Shown here: positions 9,000 to 20,620 of the stretch, in pieces
How positions within the stretch are numbered: position 1 is the stretch's first letter
Layout of the letters: every line of letters starts with the position of its first letter
Origin: Candidatus Kapaibacterium sp.
GTDB lineage: Bacteria > Bacteroidota > Ignavibacteria > Kapaibacteriales > Kapaibacteriaceae
Assembly (NCBI GenBank): GCA_018882585.1
Contig: VFFB01000001.1
Coordinates: forward strand, 65,793-97,973
DNA: 32,181 bases
Direction: 5' to 3'
Position numbers and translations under genes: made by a program
The notes under the pieces: model-generated
What the model was told of the DNA's origin: nothing
Databases searched by the model: none
What the model saw: only the letters and a program-made list of their open reading frames with translations

Positions 9000-9029
9000 T
9001 TTGCCGGGTCACGGACAAGTTTATATTTG
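9000..9029 (+). promoter_or_regulatory. Bacteroidota-type promoter (TTTG-N18-TATATTTG)
   Basis: TTTG at 9000-9003, an 18-base spacer, then TATATTTG at 9022-9029. This fits the Bacteroidota consensus TTTG / TAnnTTTG and is the best full promoter in the window. The start codon of the isomerase gene lies 22 bases further on. Confidence 0.7.
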
Positions 9030-9051
9030 GTGCAACTTTTCCGGATATAGT

Positions 9052-10131
9052 ATGGCCAAGGCGAAGAATCCCGCTGCGCAGATCGACAAGAGCAACATGT
9101 TCGACGTTCTGTATGCGTTCCCCGACCAAGTCAAGGAGGCAGTGTCGATCGGAGAGCATGCTCCGCTGTGGCGGCGCCAGTTCGTCTCCAATCGCTTTGC
9201 GATCTTTGGCCTTGGCGGTTCTGCCATCGGTGGCGACCTGTTGCGGTCGTACGCAGCAGCGACTCCCGGTGCCGACCATCTGCAGATTTCCGTGCATCGG
9301 GGATATACCGCACCGACGTGGCTTGACGCCGACACGAACACCGTGTTCTCGAGCTATTCCGGCGAGACCGAGGAAACACTTTCTGCATTCGATGATGCTC
9401 GCAAGCGGTCGGACCGTGGCCTTGTGATCACGACCGGTGGCTCCTTGGGCAAACGCGGCGTCACCTTCGGCCTGCCGATCATCAACATCCCGCCGGGATA
9501 TCAACCGCGCTGCGCCATCGCCTTCTCCTTCTTCCCGCTGCTGATGGCCATGACACGCTCTGGCGCCATGGATGGCCGCGCCGCCCGCGCGAATACGAAG
9601 GGCATCAAGGAGATCATTGCCATTGCCGATGCACGTCGCGACGAGTACGCTTCGAAATCAGCCAAGAATCCGGCATTTGCGCTTGCCAAGAAACTCCAGG
9701 ACACCATTCCGGTGATCTACTCGGCGAACGAGCGCATGGACACCGTGAATTTGCGCTGGCGTGGCCAGATCCAGGAGAATGCAAAGCAGATCGCCTTTGG
9801 CAACCAACTGCCCGAGATGAACCACAACGAGATCAACGGCTGGCAGTTCCCCAAGGCCCTGACAAAGCAGGCCAGCGTGGTCCTGTTGCGCGACGCCGAC
9901 GATCATGCCCGCGTGAAGGTTCGCTTCGACGCCCTCGAAGACATCATCAAGAAGTCCGTGAAAACGATCAGCACGGTCCAAGGCGAAGGCGCAACCCTTC
10001 TTGGCCGCATGTTTTCGGCCATCTACCTTGGCGACTGGGTAAGCTGGCACCTTGCTATCCTGAACGACGTCGACCCGACACCGGTACCCGTCATTCAGTC
10101 GCTGAAAGCCGCTCTGGCGAAGAAAAAGTAG
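9052..10131 (+). CDS. Bifunctional phosphoglucose/phosphomannose isomerase
   Basis: A 359-residue SIS-domain isomerase of the small PGI/PMI family first described in archaea. It has GLGGSAIGGD (53-62), the sugar-phosphate loop SYSGETEET (101-109), PPGYQPR (147-153) and the C-terminal LPEMNHNEINGW segment near 253, which carries the Glu and His used in the family for ring opening and isomerisation. It should interconvert glucose-6-phosphate or mannose-6-phosphate with fructose-6-phosphate in the cytosol, linking glycolysis to nucleotide-sugar synthesis. The start at 9052 is chosen because it follows a good promoter; a TTG at 9001 in frame would lie inside that promoter. It is transcribed on its own, with a separate promoter for the next gene. 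Confidence 0.93.
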   Translation: MAKAKNPAAQIDKSNMFDVLYAFPDQVKEAVSIGEHAPLWRRQFVSNRFAIFGLGGSAIGGDLLRSYAAATPGADHLQISVHRGYTAPTWLDADTNTVFSSYSGETEETLSAFDDARKRSDRGLVITTGGSLGKRGVTFGLPIINIPPGYQPRCAIAFSFFPLLMAMTRSGAMDGRAARANTKGIKEIIAIADARRDEYASKSAKNPAFALAKKLQDTIPVIYSANERMDTVNLRWRGQIQENAKQIAFGNQLPEMNHNEINGWQFPKALTKQASVVLLRDADDHARVKVRFDALEDIIKKSVKTISTVQGEGATLLGRMFSAIYLGDWVSWHLAILNDVDPTPVPVIQSLKAALAKKK

Positions 10132-16769: not shown

Positions 16770-18113
16770 ATGTTCGCTGTCATGAAACACATCATATGTC
16801 TGCTGACGCTCGTCGTGGTCACGGCCTCGACCATGAACGCTCAACAGCCTGCTGTTGCAGCGGGCCCCATGATCGGCCATGTCGACATGCGTGAAGCCCT
16901 ACTCTGGGTTCAGACAACACAGGCAGTTCCGGTGCGGATCAGCTACGCTGACAGCGCACAACCTGCCATTAGACACTCAACGCCCGTGCAGACCGGTTCG
17001 GCGTCATCGCTGTATGCAATGACCTTCCGACTGGACAAGGTCGAGCCGGGCAGGACATACGCGTACGAGGTCATTGTGGACGGTAAGACCCAGAAGTTTG
17101 CGTATCCGACAACGTTCCGGACACAACCGGTATGGAAGTGGCGCAAGCAGGACCCGCCCTCGGCCACACTGGCCATCGGCTCGTGCTTCTACATCAACGA
17201 AGACGGTTACGAGCGTAGCGGCGGCGGCTACGGCAGCGACTATGAGATCATGTCCGCACTCCATGCAAAGCGGCCCGACGCCATGCTATGGTTGGGTGAC
17301 AACGTGTATCTGCGCGAACCCGACTGGAACTCCCGTGCAGGTATCTACAAGCGCTACTCGCACACGCGTGCAGTAGCCGAGTTACAGCCGCTACTTGCTT
17401 CCACAGCGCATTATGCCATTTGGGATGATCACGATTTTGGGCCAAACGACTCTGACCGCAGCTGGTGGGGCAAGGCTGATGCCTTGCAGGTATTCAAGGA
17501 CTTTTGGCCGAACCCGTCATACGGCATAGCGGATAAGTCGGGCATCACAACGTCGTTCTCACTCATCGACGTCGATGTCTTCATGCTGGACGACCGGTAC
17601 TATCGATCGGCGAACAACCGCAAGGACGGCGAGCGCACCATACTCGGCGAGCATCAGATCCAATGGTTGATGGACGCGTTATCGAGCAGCACGGCCACCT
17701 TCAAGATTGTCGCCGTGGGCAGTCAGTTCCTCACCGACAATCTTCGTAAGGAGTGCTTTGCGCGTATGCCGCAGGAGCGGCAGCGCATCATCGACCTGAT
17801 CACGCAGAACGAGATCAAAGGCGTGATGTTCGTCACGGGCGACATCCACGCTGCCGAACTATCCAAGCTCGACCGACCCGGCACATATCCGCTGTACGAG
17901 TTCACGTCGTCCTCACTCACAGCCGGTGCAAACAAGGATATCGAACAGCAGTCAAACACGTTTCGTGTTCCGGGCACGGCCGTTGGTAAGCACAACTTCG
18001 GACTCATCACCGTCAGCGGCCCAGCCAAGCAACGCGTTCTAACGCTCGCCGTCCACGACAAGGATGGCAACCAGGTATGGCGACGCGAGATCAGGGAAGA
18101 TGAGCTGCGATAA
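16770..18113 (+). CDS. Secreted PhoD-like metallophosphatase
   Basis: A 447-residue exported protein. A signal peptide covers about residues 1-24 (ending TMNAQQ); a second ATG at 16782 gives a shorter one. An N-terminal Fn3-like domain (about 30-120) is followed by the PhoD-type metallophosphatase domain: AIGSC (135-139), GDNVYLREPDW (176-186), WDDHDFGPND (218-227) and GDIHAAE (357-363). These carry the Asp, Asn and His residues that bind the two-metal centre in the family. Its activity is probably phosphodiesterase or alkaline phosphatase in the periplasm or outside, releasing phosphate from organic phosphates; the substrate is unknown. Its stop codon (18111-18113) directly abuts the first unit of a tandem repeat array. 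Confidence 0.92.
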   Translation: MFAVMKHIICLLTLVVVTASTMNAQQPAVAAGPMIGHVDMREALLWVQTTQAVPVRISYADSAQPAIRHSTPVQTGSASSLYAMTFRLDKVEPGRTYAYEVIVDGKTQKFAYPTTFRTQPVWKWRKQDPPSATLAIGSCFYINEDGYERSGGGYGSDYEIMSALHAKRPDAMLWLGDNVYLREPDWNSRAGIYKRYSHTRAVAELQPLLASTAHYAIWDDHDFGPNDSDRSWWGKADALQVFKDFWPNPSYGIADKSGITTSFSLIDVDVFMLDDRYYRSANNRKDGERTILGEHQIQWLMDALSSSTATFKIVAVGSQFLTDNLRKECFARMPQERQRIIDLITQNEIKGVMFVTGDIHAAELSKLDRPGTYPLYEFTSSSLTAGANKDIEQQSNTFRVPGTAVGKHNFGLITVSGPAKQRVLTLAVHDKDGNQVWRREIREDELR

Positions 18114-18181
18114 CGCGTTGGCCCGGCATCATCGCGTTGGCCCGGCATCATCGCGTTGGCCCGGCATCATCGCGTTGGCCC
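18114..18181 (+). repeat. Tandem array of a 19-bp unit, left side of the transposase module
   Basis: CGCGTTGGCCCGGCATCAT occurs three times exactly (18114-18132, 18133-18151, 18152-18170). A partial fourth copy runs straight into the first REP-like hairpin. Another copy of the GGCATCATCGCGT part, with one change after it, precedes the second hairpin at 18246. The array begins at the base after the stop codon of the phosphatase gene. Confidence 0.95.
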
Positions 18182-18217
18182 ACAGCTGAGGCTGTGGGCT
18201 AATATGGGCCGACGGGG
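18173..18217 (+). repeat. REP-like hairpin unit, copy 1
   Basis: The unit starts CGTTGGCCC and ends GGGCCGACGGGG. It contains the hairpin CCCACAGC-TGAG-GCTGTGGG, whose stem extends to about 12 pairs (18175-18202, one G-T wobble). The outer CGTTGGCCC can pair instead with the distal GGGCCGACG, giving an alternative longer structure. Confidence 0.9.
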
Positions 18218-18255
18218 ATTGTGCGTGCATCGAATTGTCAAACGTGGCATCATCG

Positions 18256-18300
18256 CGTCGGCCCACAGCTGAGGCTGTGGGCTAATATGGGCCGACGGGG
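18256..18300 (+). repeat. REP-like hairpin unit, copy 2
   Basis: Same 45-bp unit as at 18173, in the same direction, with one base changed (CGTCGGCCC). That change makes the outer pairing with GGGCCGACG a perfect 9-bp match, so the alternative fold is stronger in this copy. The inner hairpin core CCCACAGC/GCTGTGGG is unchanged. Confidence 0.9.
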
Positions 18301-18366
18301 ATACGACGTGCATGTAGGACTGGCGTGCATGCGTCACATTCCCTGTGTCTCAAGACACATGGTCAC

Positions 18367-18756
18367 ATGTCACACACACATACATCGCTGTGCTTCCATG
18401 TTGTGTTTGCCACGAAACATAGGATAGCGCTGATCCGCCCCGAATTGGCCGATGACATCTGGTCTATTCTATGGGATGTTTGCTCGGAGTTGGGCATTCA
18501 CGTCTACGCTATCAATGGCGGAGATGATCACGCGCATATTTTAATGGCCTTGCTACCAAACCAATGCCTCGCGGACGTCGTTAGGCTTATCAAATCGAAA
18601 TCAACGCGCGAGATACGATCCAGACACCCTGACCTAGACCATTTTGCATGGCAGCGTGGATACGGCGCGTTCACCTTCTCGCATCATCATCTCAACGTTC
18701 TGATCGCGTACGTTCGTTCTCAACCGGAGAGAGACAATAGGAGCAACCCGCCCTGA
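18367..18756 (+). CDS. IS200/REP-associated tyrosine (HUH) transposase, C-terminus probably damaged
   Basis: A 129-residue Y1 transposase. From MSHTHTSLCFHVVFATKHR the sequence follows the IS200 family closely. The HUH motif is H55-A56-H57 in GGDDHAHIL, WQRGYGAF is at 95-102, and the catalytic tyrosine is Y115 with its partner Q119 (AYVRSQ). Such enzymes cut and join single-stranded DNA at hairpins. Family members usually continue some 25 residues after this point with a TFxEE segment and a GIxFDE segment. Here the frame stops at 18756, while DFEDAVTPL (18755-18781, next frame) and AIGFDEHH (18778 on, original frame) look like those pieces split by small indels. The core may still be active. 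The start at 18367 is the family start; a GTG at 18325 is in frame. Confidence 0.85.
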   Translation: MSHTHTSLCFHVVFATKHRIALIRPELADDIWSILWDVCSELGIHVYAINGGDDHAHILMALLPNQCLADVVRLIKSKSTREIRSRHPDLDHFAWQRGYGAFTFSHHHLNVLIAYVRSQPERDNRSNPP

Positions 18757-18803
18757 TTTCGAAGATGCTGTGACACCGCTATAGGTTTCGATGAACACCA
18801 TGC
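18757..18803 (+). pseudogene. Decayed C-terminal tail of the transposase
   Basis: Directly after the TGA, the next frame reads DFEDAVTPL and then the original frame reads AIGFDEHH. Both resemble the normal C-terminal end of IS200-type transposases (TFxEE... GIxFDExY), so one or two small indels have probably broken the tail. This is judged from memory of the family, not from an alignment. Confidence 0.45.
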
Positions 18804-18848
18804 CCCCGTCGACCCATATTAGCCCACAGCCTCAGCTGTGGGCCAACG
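18804..18848 (-). repeat. REP-like hairpin unit, inverted copy 3
   Basis: The reverse complement of the 45-bp unit at 18173-18217, with one mismatch (GTCGACCC for GTCGGCCC). Together with the left copies it makes an inverted flank around the transposase gene. Confidence 0.9.
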
Positions 18849-18944
18849 TAACGATAACGTGGACCAACGTCAAGATAACGTGGGCCAACGTTACGATAAC
18901 GGGGGCCAACGCAACGATAACATAGGCTAACGCAACAATAACGT
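18840..18944 (+). repeat. Tandem array of a 21-bp unit, right side of the transposase module
   Basis: Five imperfect copies of a 21-bp unit that begins GGGCCAACG and ends GATAACGT, starting at 18840, 18861, 18882, 18903 and 18924. A sixth, shortened copy begins at 18945. The GGGCCAACG half is the reverse complement of the CGTTGGCCC core found in the left array. Because 21 is a multiple of three, one minus-strand frame stays open through it and would encode repeats of VGPRY; I do not believe it is a gene. Confidence 0.93.
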
Positions 18945-18980
18945 GGGCCAACCCGAAGATGTGGGCCCATGGTTCCATCA

Positions 18981-20606
18981 TCACACGTTCGGCCGCCAGG
19001 CAAGGTTCCGCACGTATGAAGCGATATCGGCAGGACGTTCCTCGCGGGCAAGGCCCGTGTCCCACAGCCAGGTTGCAACGGTGGCAGCGATGTGCATCTG
19101 CGTTTCGCGGATGGTGCGCAGCGGCGGATAGATCAGTCCTATGGCAAAGTCTTCCTTCGTGGCCATTGCCGCAAGAGCCCGCGCCGAAACGGCAAAGGCC
19201 TCGTCGGGAAGGTGCGTCGGACGTGCCGCCAGGACGGCCAATCCCATGGCCGGGAAGATCAGCACGTTGTTGCCCTGGCTGGCATACATGCGCTTGCCGT
19301 TGACGGTCACCGGATCAAATGGGCTCCCGCTTGCAAAGATCGCTGCGCCATTCGTCCACTGATAGGCTTCTTCGGCCGTGCACTCAGCCTTTGATGTTGG
19401 ATTCGAGAATGGGAAGATCAGGGGGCGAGGTGTGTTCGCCATCATGGCGTCGACGACGTCTCGAGTGAAACTGCGAGGTATCGTCGAGGTTCCGATGATG
19501 ACCGTGGCCTTGATCTGGCGGACTGCTTCGGCAAGATCCGTGACCTCGACATGGTCATGAGCATAGCGCCCCTTCTGGTCGCCAAGACCGGTACGAGACG
19601 ACTGCACGAGTCCCTTGGAATCGAACAGCCAGCAGCGCCTGCGTGCCTCGTCGAGCGTCAACCCGTCCTGCACCATCACCAGCGTTAGCAGGTCAGCGAT
19701 GCCAATTCCGGCCGAACCGGCGCCAAAAAACAGCATGCGCTGATCGGCAAGTTGCTCGTCCTTTAGGCGCAGGGCAGCCAGGATGCCCGCAACACCTACG
19801 GCCGCCGTTCCCTGGATGTCGTCGTTGAAGCTACACACACGGTTACGATAGCGCTCCAGGAGTGGCACGGCATTCTGATTGGCAAAGTCCTCCCACTGGA
19901 TCGTGGCCTCGGGGAAGACCTCTTGCACGGCCGTCACAAATTCTTCAAGGAAGCTGTCGTACTCCTCGCCCGTCAGCCGCTCTTTGCGCACGCCGATGTA
20001 GAAGGGGTCATCAAGCAGCTCGCGATTGTTCGTACCCACGTCAAGCGTTATGGGCAGGGCCATCTGCGGAGGCACCCCTGCACAGGCCGTATACAAAGCC
20101 AGCTTGCCGATGGGAATGCCCATGCCCTGCGCTCCTTGGTCGCCAAGACCCAGGATACGCTCGCCATCTGTAACAACCACGAACCGCACATCCTTGACAT
20201 GCCAGTTCCGCAGCACTTCGGCGATACGTCCACGATGGTTGCGGGATACCCACAACCCCTTTGGACGTCGATACCAGCGGCCGTACTGCTGGCAGGCAGC
20301 GCCTACCGTAGGCGTGTAGACGATGGGCATGTACTTCACAGGATCGTGCATCAGCACACGATAGAACAGGTCTTCGTTGCGCTCCTGCAAGTCGCTGAAG
20401 TAGACGTACCGCTCCATGTCGGTCGCCAGACTTGCCAGGTGAAGCTCGGCTCGATGAAGCTGCGTATCGTGTGAGCTTACAACGTCGGGCAGCAAGCCCT
20501 CGATGCCGAGCTCGCGTCGCTGTTCAATGGTAAAGGCCGTGCCTTTATTCAGCCGCGGGTCGCGCAGCAGGTCGATGCCACGCTTAGGTGATGTGGGGTC
20601 GGTCAT
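18981..20606 (-). CDS. Malic enzyme (oxaloacetate-decarboxylating malate dehydrogenase)
   Basis: A 541-residue malic enzyme of the long type. It decarboxylates malate to pyruvate and CO2 with reduction of NAD or NADP, in the cytosol. Motifs are PIVYTPTVG with the catalytic Tyr (Y97), GIPIGKLALY with the catalytic Lys (K168), WEDFANQNA (E239, D240) and SFNDDIQGTAAVG (D262) for the metal, and the dinucleotide-binding FGAGSAGIG (294-302). The length and order match the MaeA-like large bacterial and eukaryotic type. The cofactor preference cannot be read reliably. The ATG at 20606 is preferred; a TTG at 20615 lies in the promoter box. It is divergent from the PD40 gene and convergent with the transposase module. 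Confidence 0.95.
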   Translation of the reverse strand: MTDPTSPKRGIDLLRDPRLNKGTAFTIEQRRELGIEGLLPDVVSSHDTQLHRAELHLASLATDMERYVYFSDLQERNEDLFYRVLMHDPVKYMPIVYTPTVGAACQQYGRWYRRPKGLWVSRNHRGRIAEVLRNWHVKDVRFVVVTDGERILGLGDQGAQGMGIPIGKLALYTACAGVPPQMALPITLDVGTNNRELLDDPFYIGVRKERLTGEEYDSFLEEFVTAVQEVFPEATIQWEDFANQNAVPLLERYRNRVCSFNDDIQGTAAVGVAGILAALRLKDEQLADQRMLFFGAGSAGIGIADLLTLVMVQDGLTLDEARRRCWLFDSKGLVQSSRTGLGDQKGRYAHDHVEVTDLAEAVRQIKATVIIGTSTIPRSFTRDVVDAMMANTPRPLIFPFSNPTSKAECTAEEAYQWTNGAAIFASGSPFDPVTVNGKRMYASQGNNVLIFPAMGLAVLAARPTHLPDEAFAVSARALAAMATKEDFAIGLIYPPLRTIRETQMHIAATVATWLWDTGLAREERPADIASYVRNLAWRPNV

Positions 20607-20612
20607 GGACGG

Positions 20613-20620
20613 CAAAAATA
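20613..20620 (-). promoter_or_regulatory. -7 box of malic enzyme
   Basis: TATTTTTG on the minus strand, a perfect TAnnTTTG, six bases before the ATG at 20606. It predicts an mRNA that starts at or next to the start codon. Confidence 0.55.

Follow-up and report, generated by a model that had tools for sequence, protein, structure and literature searches.

How does a single transposase gene come to lie between two tandem arrays whose units differ in length and yet share the same nine bases in opposite directions? The question is raised by a 32,181-nucleotide stretch of a Candidatus Kapaibacterium genome (the window), in which two convergent genes, encoding a PhoD-like phosphatase (16770–18113, plus strand; an open reading frame matching PF09423 at 5.2e-27) and a malic enzyme (18981–20615, minus strand; PF03949/PF00390 and NF010052), enclose 867 bp. 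This gap contains, in order, a 19-bp array, two hairpin units, a Y1/HUH transposase gene, an inverted hairpin unit and a 21-bp array. The original prediction of an HUH transposase framed by inverted REP-like units was right, as borne out by the Pfam match of the protein, its predicted fold and the cognate hairpins dispersed in the genome.

The hairpin unit, about 42 bp long, has the form of a nested palindrome, CGTTGGCCCACAGC TGAG GCTGTGGGC TAATAT GGGCCGACG, with an NTAG tag at the 5´ foot, an 8-bp stem and a 4-nt loop. Units 1 (18173–18214, hairpin 18178–18199) and 2 (18256–18297, hairpin 18261–18282) lie on the minus strand as direct repeats at a distance of 83 bp, and unit 3 (18807–18848, hairpin 18822–18843) is inverted relative to both, on the plus strand; the tag ATATTAG of units 1 and 3 points to the gene. 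The length of the unit had first been put at 45 bp, and the symmetrical pair of hairpins first proposed gives way to three units, two on the left in one orientation and an inverted one on the right. Folding of the single strand agrees with what had been claimed, and the right unit reaches z = -5.4 relative to shuffles. A known RNA family was rejected, as Rfam gave no match.

Both arrays, listed on the plus strand, were found by TRF and by a repeat search. The left array (18114–18181) abuts the stop codon of the phosphatase gene and consists of 3.6 copies of the 19-bp unit CGCGTTGGCCCGGCATCAT with 100% matches, the last copy entering the outer arm of the first hairpin. The right array (18838–18952) has its start within the hairpin's 3´ arm, from which it extends outward with 5.5 copies of the 21-bp unit GTGGGCCAACGTAACGATAAC (81% matches). 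TRF at its default threshold reports no other tandem array in the window. The nine bases CGTTGGCCC occur seven times in the window, four times forward in the left array and three times reversed in the right array, as had been noticed; shuffled windows contain 0.59 copies on average and four at most, none of 100 reaching seven, and a tandem pair of the exact core is found nowhere else in the 2.79-Mb genome. The units of the two arrays differ less than had been described when both are read outward from the gene, as GGGCCAACGC-GATGATGCC and GGGCCAACGTAACGATAACGT. The units keep a core, GGGCCAACG, that could pair at 7 to 9 of 9 positions with CGTCGRCCC, the conserved 5´ flank of the hairpin units of the window. 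As a general rule this complementarity was dropped, none being visible in the related locus L033. A guide rule has been described that links the tag to the cleavage dinucleotide (PMC8266576). Each consensus unit of both arrays has one CA, within the shared core, and no CT, and the actual copies of the right array have additional CAs and one CT; a cleavage site predicted from the tag (CT or CA) did not fit relatives with other tags, and we regard it as speculation.

The transposase gene (18367–18756, plus strand) encodes 129 amino acids from an ATG at 18367 that is homologous to the start in relatives. The protein matches Y1_Tnp (PF01797) at 1.4e-25 and the NCBIfam IS200/IS605 model NF033573 with 81.8 bits (cut-off 55), but it fails the model of REP-associated tyrosine transposases (RAYTs), with 30.1 bits against a cut-off of 80. 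In a Foldseek search, which bears on the fold only, its AlphaFold2 model (mean pLDDT 91.7) is closer to the ISDra2/IS608 TnpA structures (2xma/2xqc, TM 0.74) than to the E. coli RAYT (4er8, 0.67). Among 14 relatives there is no variation at the two catalytic histidines, the tyrosine and the glutamine. The relatives carry DH-u-H, WQ and Y---Q--HH, the motif set of TnpA-Y1 subclass 1.2 (PMC6006769), in which the first motif is DH[IV]H. In the window protein the corresponding residues are DHAH, WQ and YVRSQPERD. By its model score and its motif (YVRSQP, not Y---NP), then, the enzyme is not a RAYT, and in sequence it resembles subclass 1.2. RD stands in place of the HH that follows the catalytic tyrosine in its closest relatives, and the C-terminal tail of the subclass (about 30 amino acids) is missing in the clade of the window and present in other relatives; because of these two features the protein could be decaying. 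The genome has one close copy (judged from a 200-contig draft), the next Y1 protein being 31% identical, and a protein scan of the genome contigs with the transposase as query found nothing. No tnpB gene is adjacent to the Y1 gene.

The closest relatives of the PhoD-like protein come from metagenome-assembled genomes of the Kapaibacterium lineage. One of these genomes, Ca. Kapaibacterium SFB_649D (L218), has the two genes next to each other in the same convergent arrangement, separated by 9 bp and with no transposase between them; its malic enzyme is 63% identical. Because the same intergenic gap is only 9 bp in that genome, the element of the window is probably an insertion rather than the remnant of a loss elsewhere, as judged from this one comparison.

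Hairpins of the same type are not confined to the locus. Elsewhere the genome has about 35 copies, perfect or nearly so, and their stems differ from those at the gene in a compensated manner (CCCACGGC/GCCGTGGG in dispersed copies vs CCCACAGC/GCTGTGGG). NTAG stands at the 5´ foot in 34 of 35 tabulated units (N being T in 18, G in 13 and A in 3), and units oriented by the tag have about 15 nt upstream in common, GTCGRCCNATANTAG. Many dispersed hairpins are paired in inverted orientation, tags inward, with a common spacing of 145 bp. At several places a 175-bp pair aligns over its full length at 94–97% identity, and at its ends it matches the units of the window at 92–94%; we propose that such pairs form a miniature non-autonomous element of 165–175 bp.

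Hairpin and enzyme also occur together across genomes. Within the same bacterial family, the general pattern CCCNNRGC-N4-GCYNNGGG was counted 148 times in G022, 31 times in G007 and 3–5 times each in G016, G019, G020 and G021, all of which have the enzyme; in G002, G003 and G005 it was not found, and the enzyme search there also found nothing. Among the 16 units compared, drawn from the dispersed set and from nine Y1 loci, stems are 100% paired and three pairs covary, with a covariation score reached by none of 500 shuffles. Tags differ among enzymes (TTAG/GTAG, ATAG, CTAG, ACAG, ATTG, and CTGA in two relatives), and each Y1 gene of the genome of the window (G000) has its own hairpin family, that of the second gene, with the 31% identical product, being CCCCGGGCTGCCGCCCGGGG, which is both dispersed and present in adjacent arrays. 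When flanking repeats were traced in 20-kb stretches of 36 genomes, dispersal was seen in 1 of 40 cases, these stretches being too short to register low copy numbers. An assignment of the window hairpin to the CGTC-type REPs was rejected: the conserved GTCGRCC lies 15–16 nt from the hairpin and not at its foot, and published CGTC repeats have no transposase. A sequence resembling a CGTC-type REP, CGATTCCCGCTTTCGCGGGAATGACG, is found close to the window hairpin family in L005 (about 330–400, G000 contig C109), where several repeat families occupy the same intergenic regions.

In the clade of the window and in the dispersed units, the hairpin's 3´ arm contains the start of the array, which extends outward from the hairpin foot. 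Its unit in this clade, in which half-hairpin units were dissected, consists of the 3´ arm and a spacer: CCGTGGG+ACG (10 bp) in L033, CCGTGGG+TGC (10 bp) in L061, GCCCTGGG+TGTGAA (14 bp) in L041 and GCCCTGGG+TTGGAGA (15 bp) in L036, the 21-bp right unit of the window following the same plan. Within the outer 80 nt, 22 of 50 related hairpins repeat the final 6 nt of their 3´ arm, compared with 5 of 50 on the inner side and 2.7 expected from shuffles. The iterated half-hairpins seen at both ends of the window element are thus real and recur in its clade. Elsewhere in the phylum unit length increases to as much as 165 bp; a whole palindrome is present in some units, and others have none that is significant. 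The best match between the two sides of a gene, in the loci that allowed a comparison, may be inverted or direct; in L106, L040, L055, L034 and L036 the arrays on the two sides match directly and not in inverted orientation.

Arrays were called at a TRF score of at least 100 and a period of at least 10 within 400 bp of the gene, from assemblies in which short reads may miscount repeats. On this basis they adjoin 27 of 56 subclass-1.2-like loci in Bacteroidota, with representatives in 10 of 16 families sampled, and lie on both sides in nine. The corresponding figures are 6 of 222 for size-matched open reading frames of the same genomes (none on both sides), 0 of 21 for DDE transposases, 1 of 29 for RAYTs of the same phylum and 0 of 12 for IS200-type genes on plasmids. 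Fisher tests, whose significance is somewhat inflated by shared ancestry among loci, give p = 1.6e-16 against open reading frames (3e-7 for arrays on both sides) and 1.7e-5 against RAYTs. About half of the subclass-1.2-like loci have no TRF array, two named Bacteroidota plasmid loci among them. The second Y1 gene of the genome has its own, different arrays. Arrays beside roughly half of the relatives point to a recurring process.

What could turn a hairpin into an array? RAYTs cut single-stranded REPs 5´ or 3´ of the hairpin and remain linked through tyrosine to the 5´ end, leaving a 3´ hydroxyl that can be joined elsewhere, and the tag helps to select the cut site (PMC8266576). The reading we favour, with a probability of roughly 0.58, is that the locus resembles a REPtron and is based on a Y1 enzyme that is IS200-related and subclass-1.2-like, with arrays that arose by repeated cutting and rejoining in shifted register. 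The single-copy enzyme would recognize the hairpin in single-stranded DNA by its 5´ NTAG tag, 8-bp stem and 4-nt loop, may mobilize it, and would, by analogy with RAYTs, cut at its 3´ foot. Once two copies of the foot are present, cutting at one and joining to the other, a strand transfer linked through tyrosine from one iterated copy of the site to another, would add or remove one unit, and the DNA outward of the 3´ foot would grow into arrays of 3´ arm and short spacer. Cutting and rejoining would account for the start of arrays at the foot, for their one-sidedness, for a sequence specific to the locus and for their link to this group of enzymes and not to hairpins at large. The original prediction had offered docking or guide sites on the one hand and slipped cutting and joining on the other, and the second fits better. 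More tentative is the generalization that subclass 1.2 Y1 enzymes create arrays de novo, each cutting its cognate hairpin at the 3´ foot and resealing the strand with a shift of one unit. If it holds, the arrays of each lineage should have their own sequence and a common architecture, and bacterial minisatellites would have a transposase-driven origin.

The main rival, which we consider somewhat unlikely, is replication slippage: the fork would stall at a strong hairpin, the nascent strand would mispair, and the enzyme would do nothing but spread hairpins. Slippage at palindromes is established biology, and the edge of the array lies inside a hairpin arm. Arrays also adjoin dispersed hairpins away from transposase genes in the genome of the window, which fits both models. 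RAYT loci provide a comparison. Repeats common to both flanks are found in 22 of 29 of them, much as in the subclass-1.2-like group (46 of 63) and far above open reading frames (4 of 150), and 23 of the 29 have palindromes of at least 7 bp, yet only one has an array. Repeats or hairpins alone therefore do not explain arrays, and the subclass-1.2-like group is distinguished by its tandem arrays and not by repeats as such. Moreover, the iteration is restricted to the 3´ side, which plain stalling does not predict for both directions of replication.

Half-hairpins could instead have been retained by selection, because the transposase or a host protein binds them, uses them as targets or is titrated by them. 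The presence of arrays on both sides of the gene in 9 of 56 loci and the complementarity of the window core to the 5´ flank of the hairpin are in keeping with such docking sites. Units are not conserved, differing in sequence and in length (10 to 165 bp) among all relatives inspected, which makes this explanation improbable; L033 iterates a core without visible complementarity to the 5´ flank, and the uniformity of the arrays (100% on the left, 81% on the right) is more like that of a recent amplification than of a constrained site.

A further alternative, an ordinary mobile insertion sequence of the IS200/IS605 family that has subterminal hairpins, would account for the NCBIfam score and for ISDra2 and IS608 TnpA being the closest solved folds. 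The subterminal hairpins of IS200/IS605 elements are co-directional. Those of the window are inverted and also occur dispersed without a gene, the genome has only one close copy, and none of the 12 typical IS200-type loci has arrays; on copy number and hairpin orientation we rejected this very improbable alternative. A chance association of unrelated tandem repeats with the gene, to which the array-free half of the relatives might lend some colour, is practically negligible given the excess over open reading frames and, related sequences being partly dependent, the occurrence of arrays with differing units in 10 of 16 families.

The cut-and-rejoin reading places the locus among known systems as follows. 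With REPtrons and their RAYTs it shares a single-copy Y1 gene, inverted tagged hairpins that are dispersed mostly as doublets, and a perfect 8-bp stem as in the REPs of Stenotrophomonas (PMC8266576). The tag NTAG may be a counterpart of the GTAG (GT[AG]G) of REPs, related enzymes having CTGA, ACAG or ATTG. The enzyme differs from RAYTs in model score and in having Y---Q. Cleavage of the single-stranded REP, and not of the complementary strand, is a further mark of RAYTs. The dimers are tail-to-tail, which is the rarer form among GTAG repeats, and the arrays iterate half a hairpin, in contrast to published clusters that repeat whole REPs or REPINs (PMC3116915; PMC3733652). Subclass 1.2, which occurs in Bacteroidetes or Cyanobacteria, is similar in low copy number and in its Bacteroidetes distribution, and in part in its motifs (DH-u-H, WQ and Y---Q). 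It is listed as being without REPs (Quentin et al., 2018; PMC6006769), however, and the window has REP-like hairpins and arrays and a protein that lacks HH and the C-terminal tail. IS200/IS605 elements such as IS608 and ISDra2 have the Y1 fold and catalytic residues in common with the window, and the tag is located where their guide sequence is, 5´ of the hairpin; single copy number, inverted and gene-free dispersed hairpins and the missing tnpB set the window apart. TIRtrons also carry a Y1 gene between terminal inverted repeats (PMC3733652), with the consensus GGGGWSAS; the repeats of the window are tagged hairpins, and arrays do not figure in what has been described for TIRtrons. The layout is thus of the REPtron type with an enzyme that by sequence is not a RAYT. 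The earlier statement that no described element has this layout therefore does not hold for the inverted hairpins and stands for the half-hairpin arrays: as far as the literature was searched, with sparse coverage of subscription journals, we found no description of such arrays or of REP-like partners for subclass 1.2.

Subclass 1.2 TnpA-Y1 enzymes have been described without REPs or IS ends and have thus been missing a DNA partner. The tagged hairpins, which co-occur and covary with the enzyme, are a candidate for it. Arrays at about half of the subclass-1.2-like genes would link a single-strand transposase to the birth of bacterial tandem repeats, a connection open to experiment, and suggest why many intergenic regions in Bacteroidota hold short tandem palindromes.

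Several further repeats were observed in these genomes. In L078 (1060–1293, G000 contig C9) a 30-bp whole-hairpin array of six copies, CCCACGACTTCAGTCGTGGG, runs into an 18-bp array that retains only the 3´ part of the hairpin, such that whole- and half-hairpin arrays adjoin. The second Y1 gene (L080/L025, G000 contig C168, about 9005–9950) adjoins arrays of 17, 34–35 and 115 bp with CCCCGGGCTGCCGCCCGGGG, a hairpin that in its dispersed form is often a neighbour of the first hairpin family. An 18-bp array, GCGTGCGCTCGATGCGTG, of 11.8 copies follows a third, divergent Y1 fragment (L026, G000 contig C63, 21411–21665). In G022, hairpins CCCCGGGCCTTGGCCCGGGG are repeated at an exact spacing of 53 bp on contigs C7, C32 and C44, away from matches to the transposase query. 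Finally, heptanucleotide tandem repeats, e.g. TCGTAAT in 40 copies and CACCTCA, are found near several Y1 loci (L083, 1328–1609; L033, 1503–1582; L034, 955–984; L053, 1369–1394; L056; L096).
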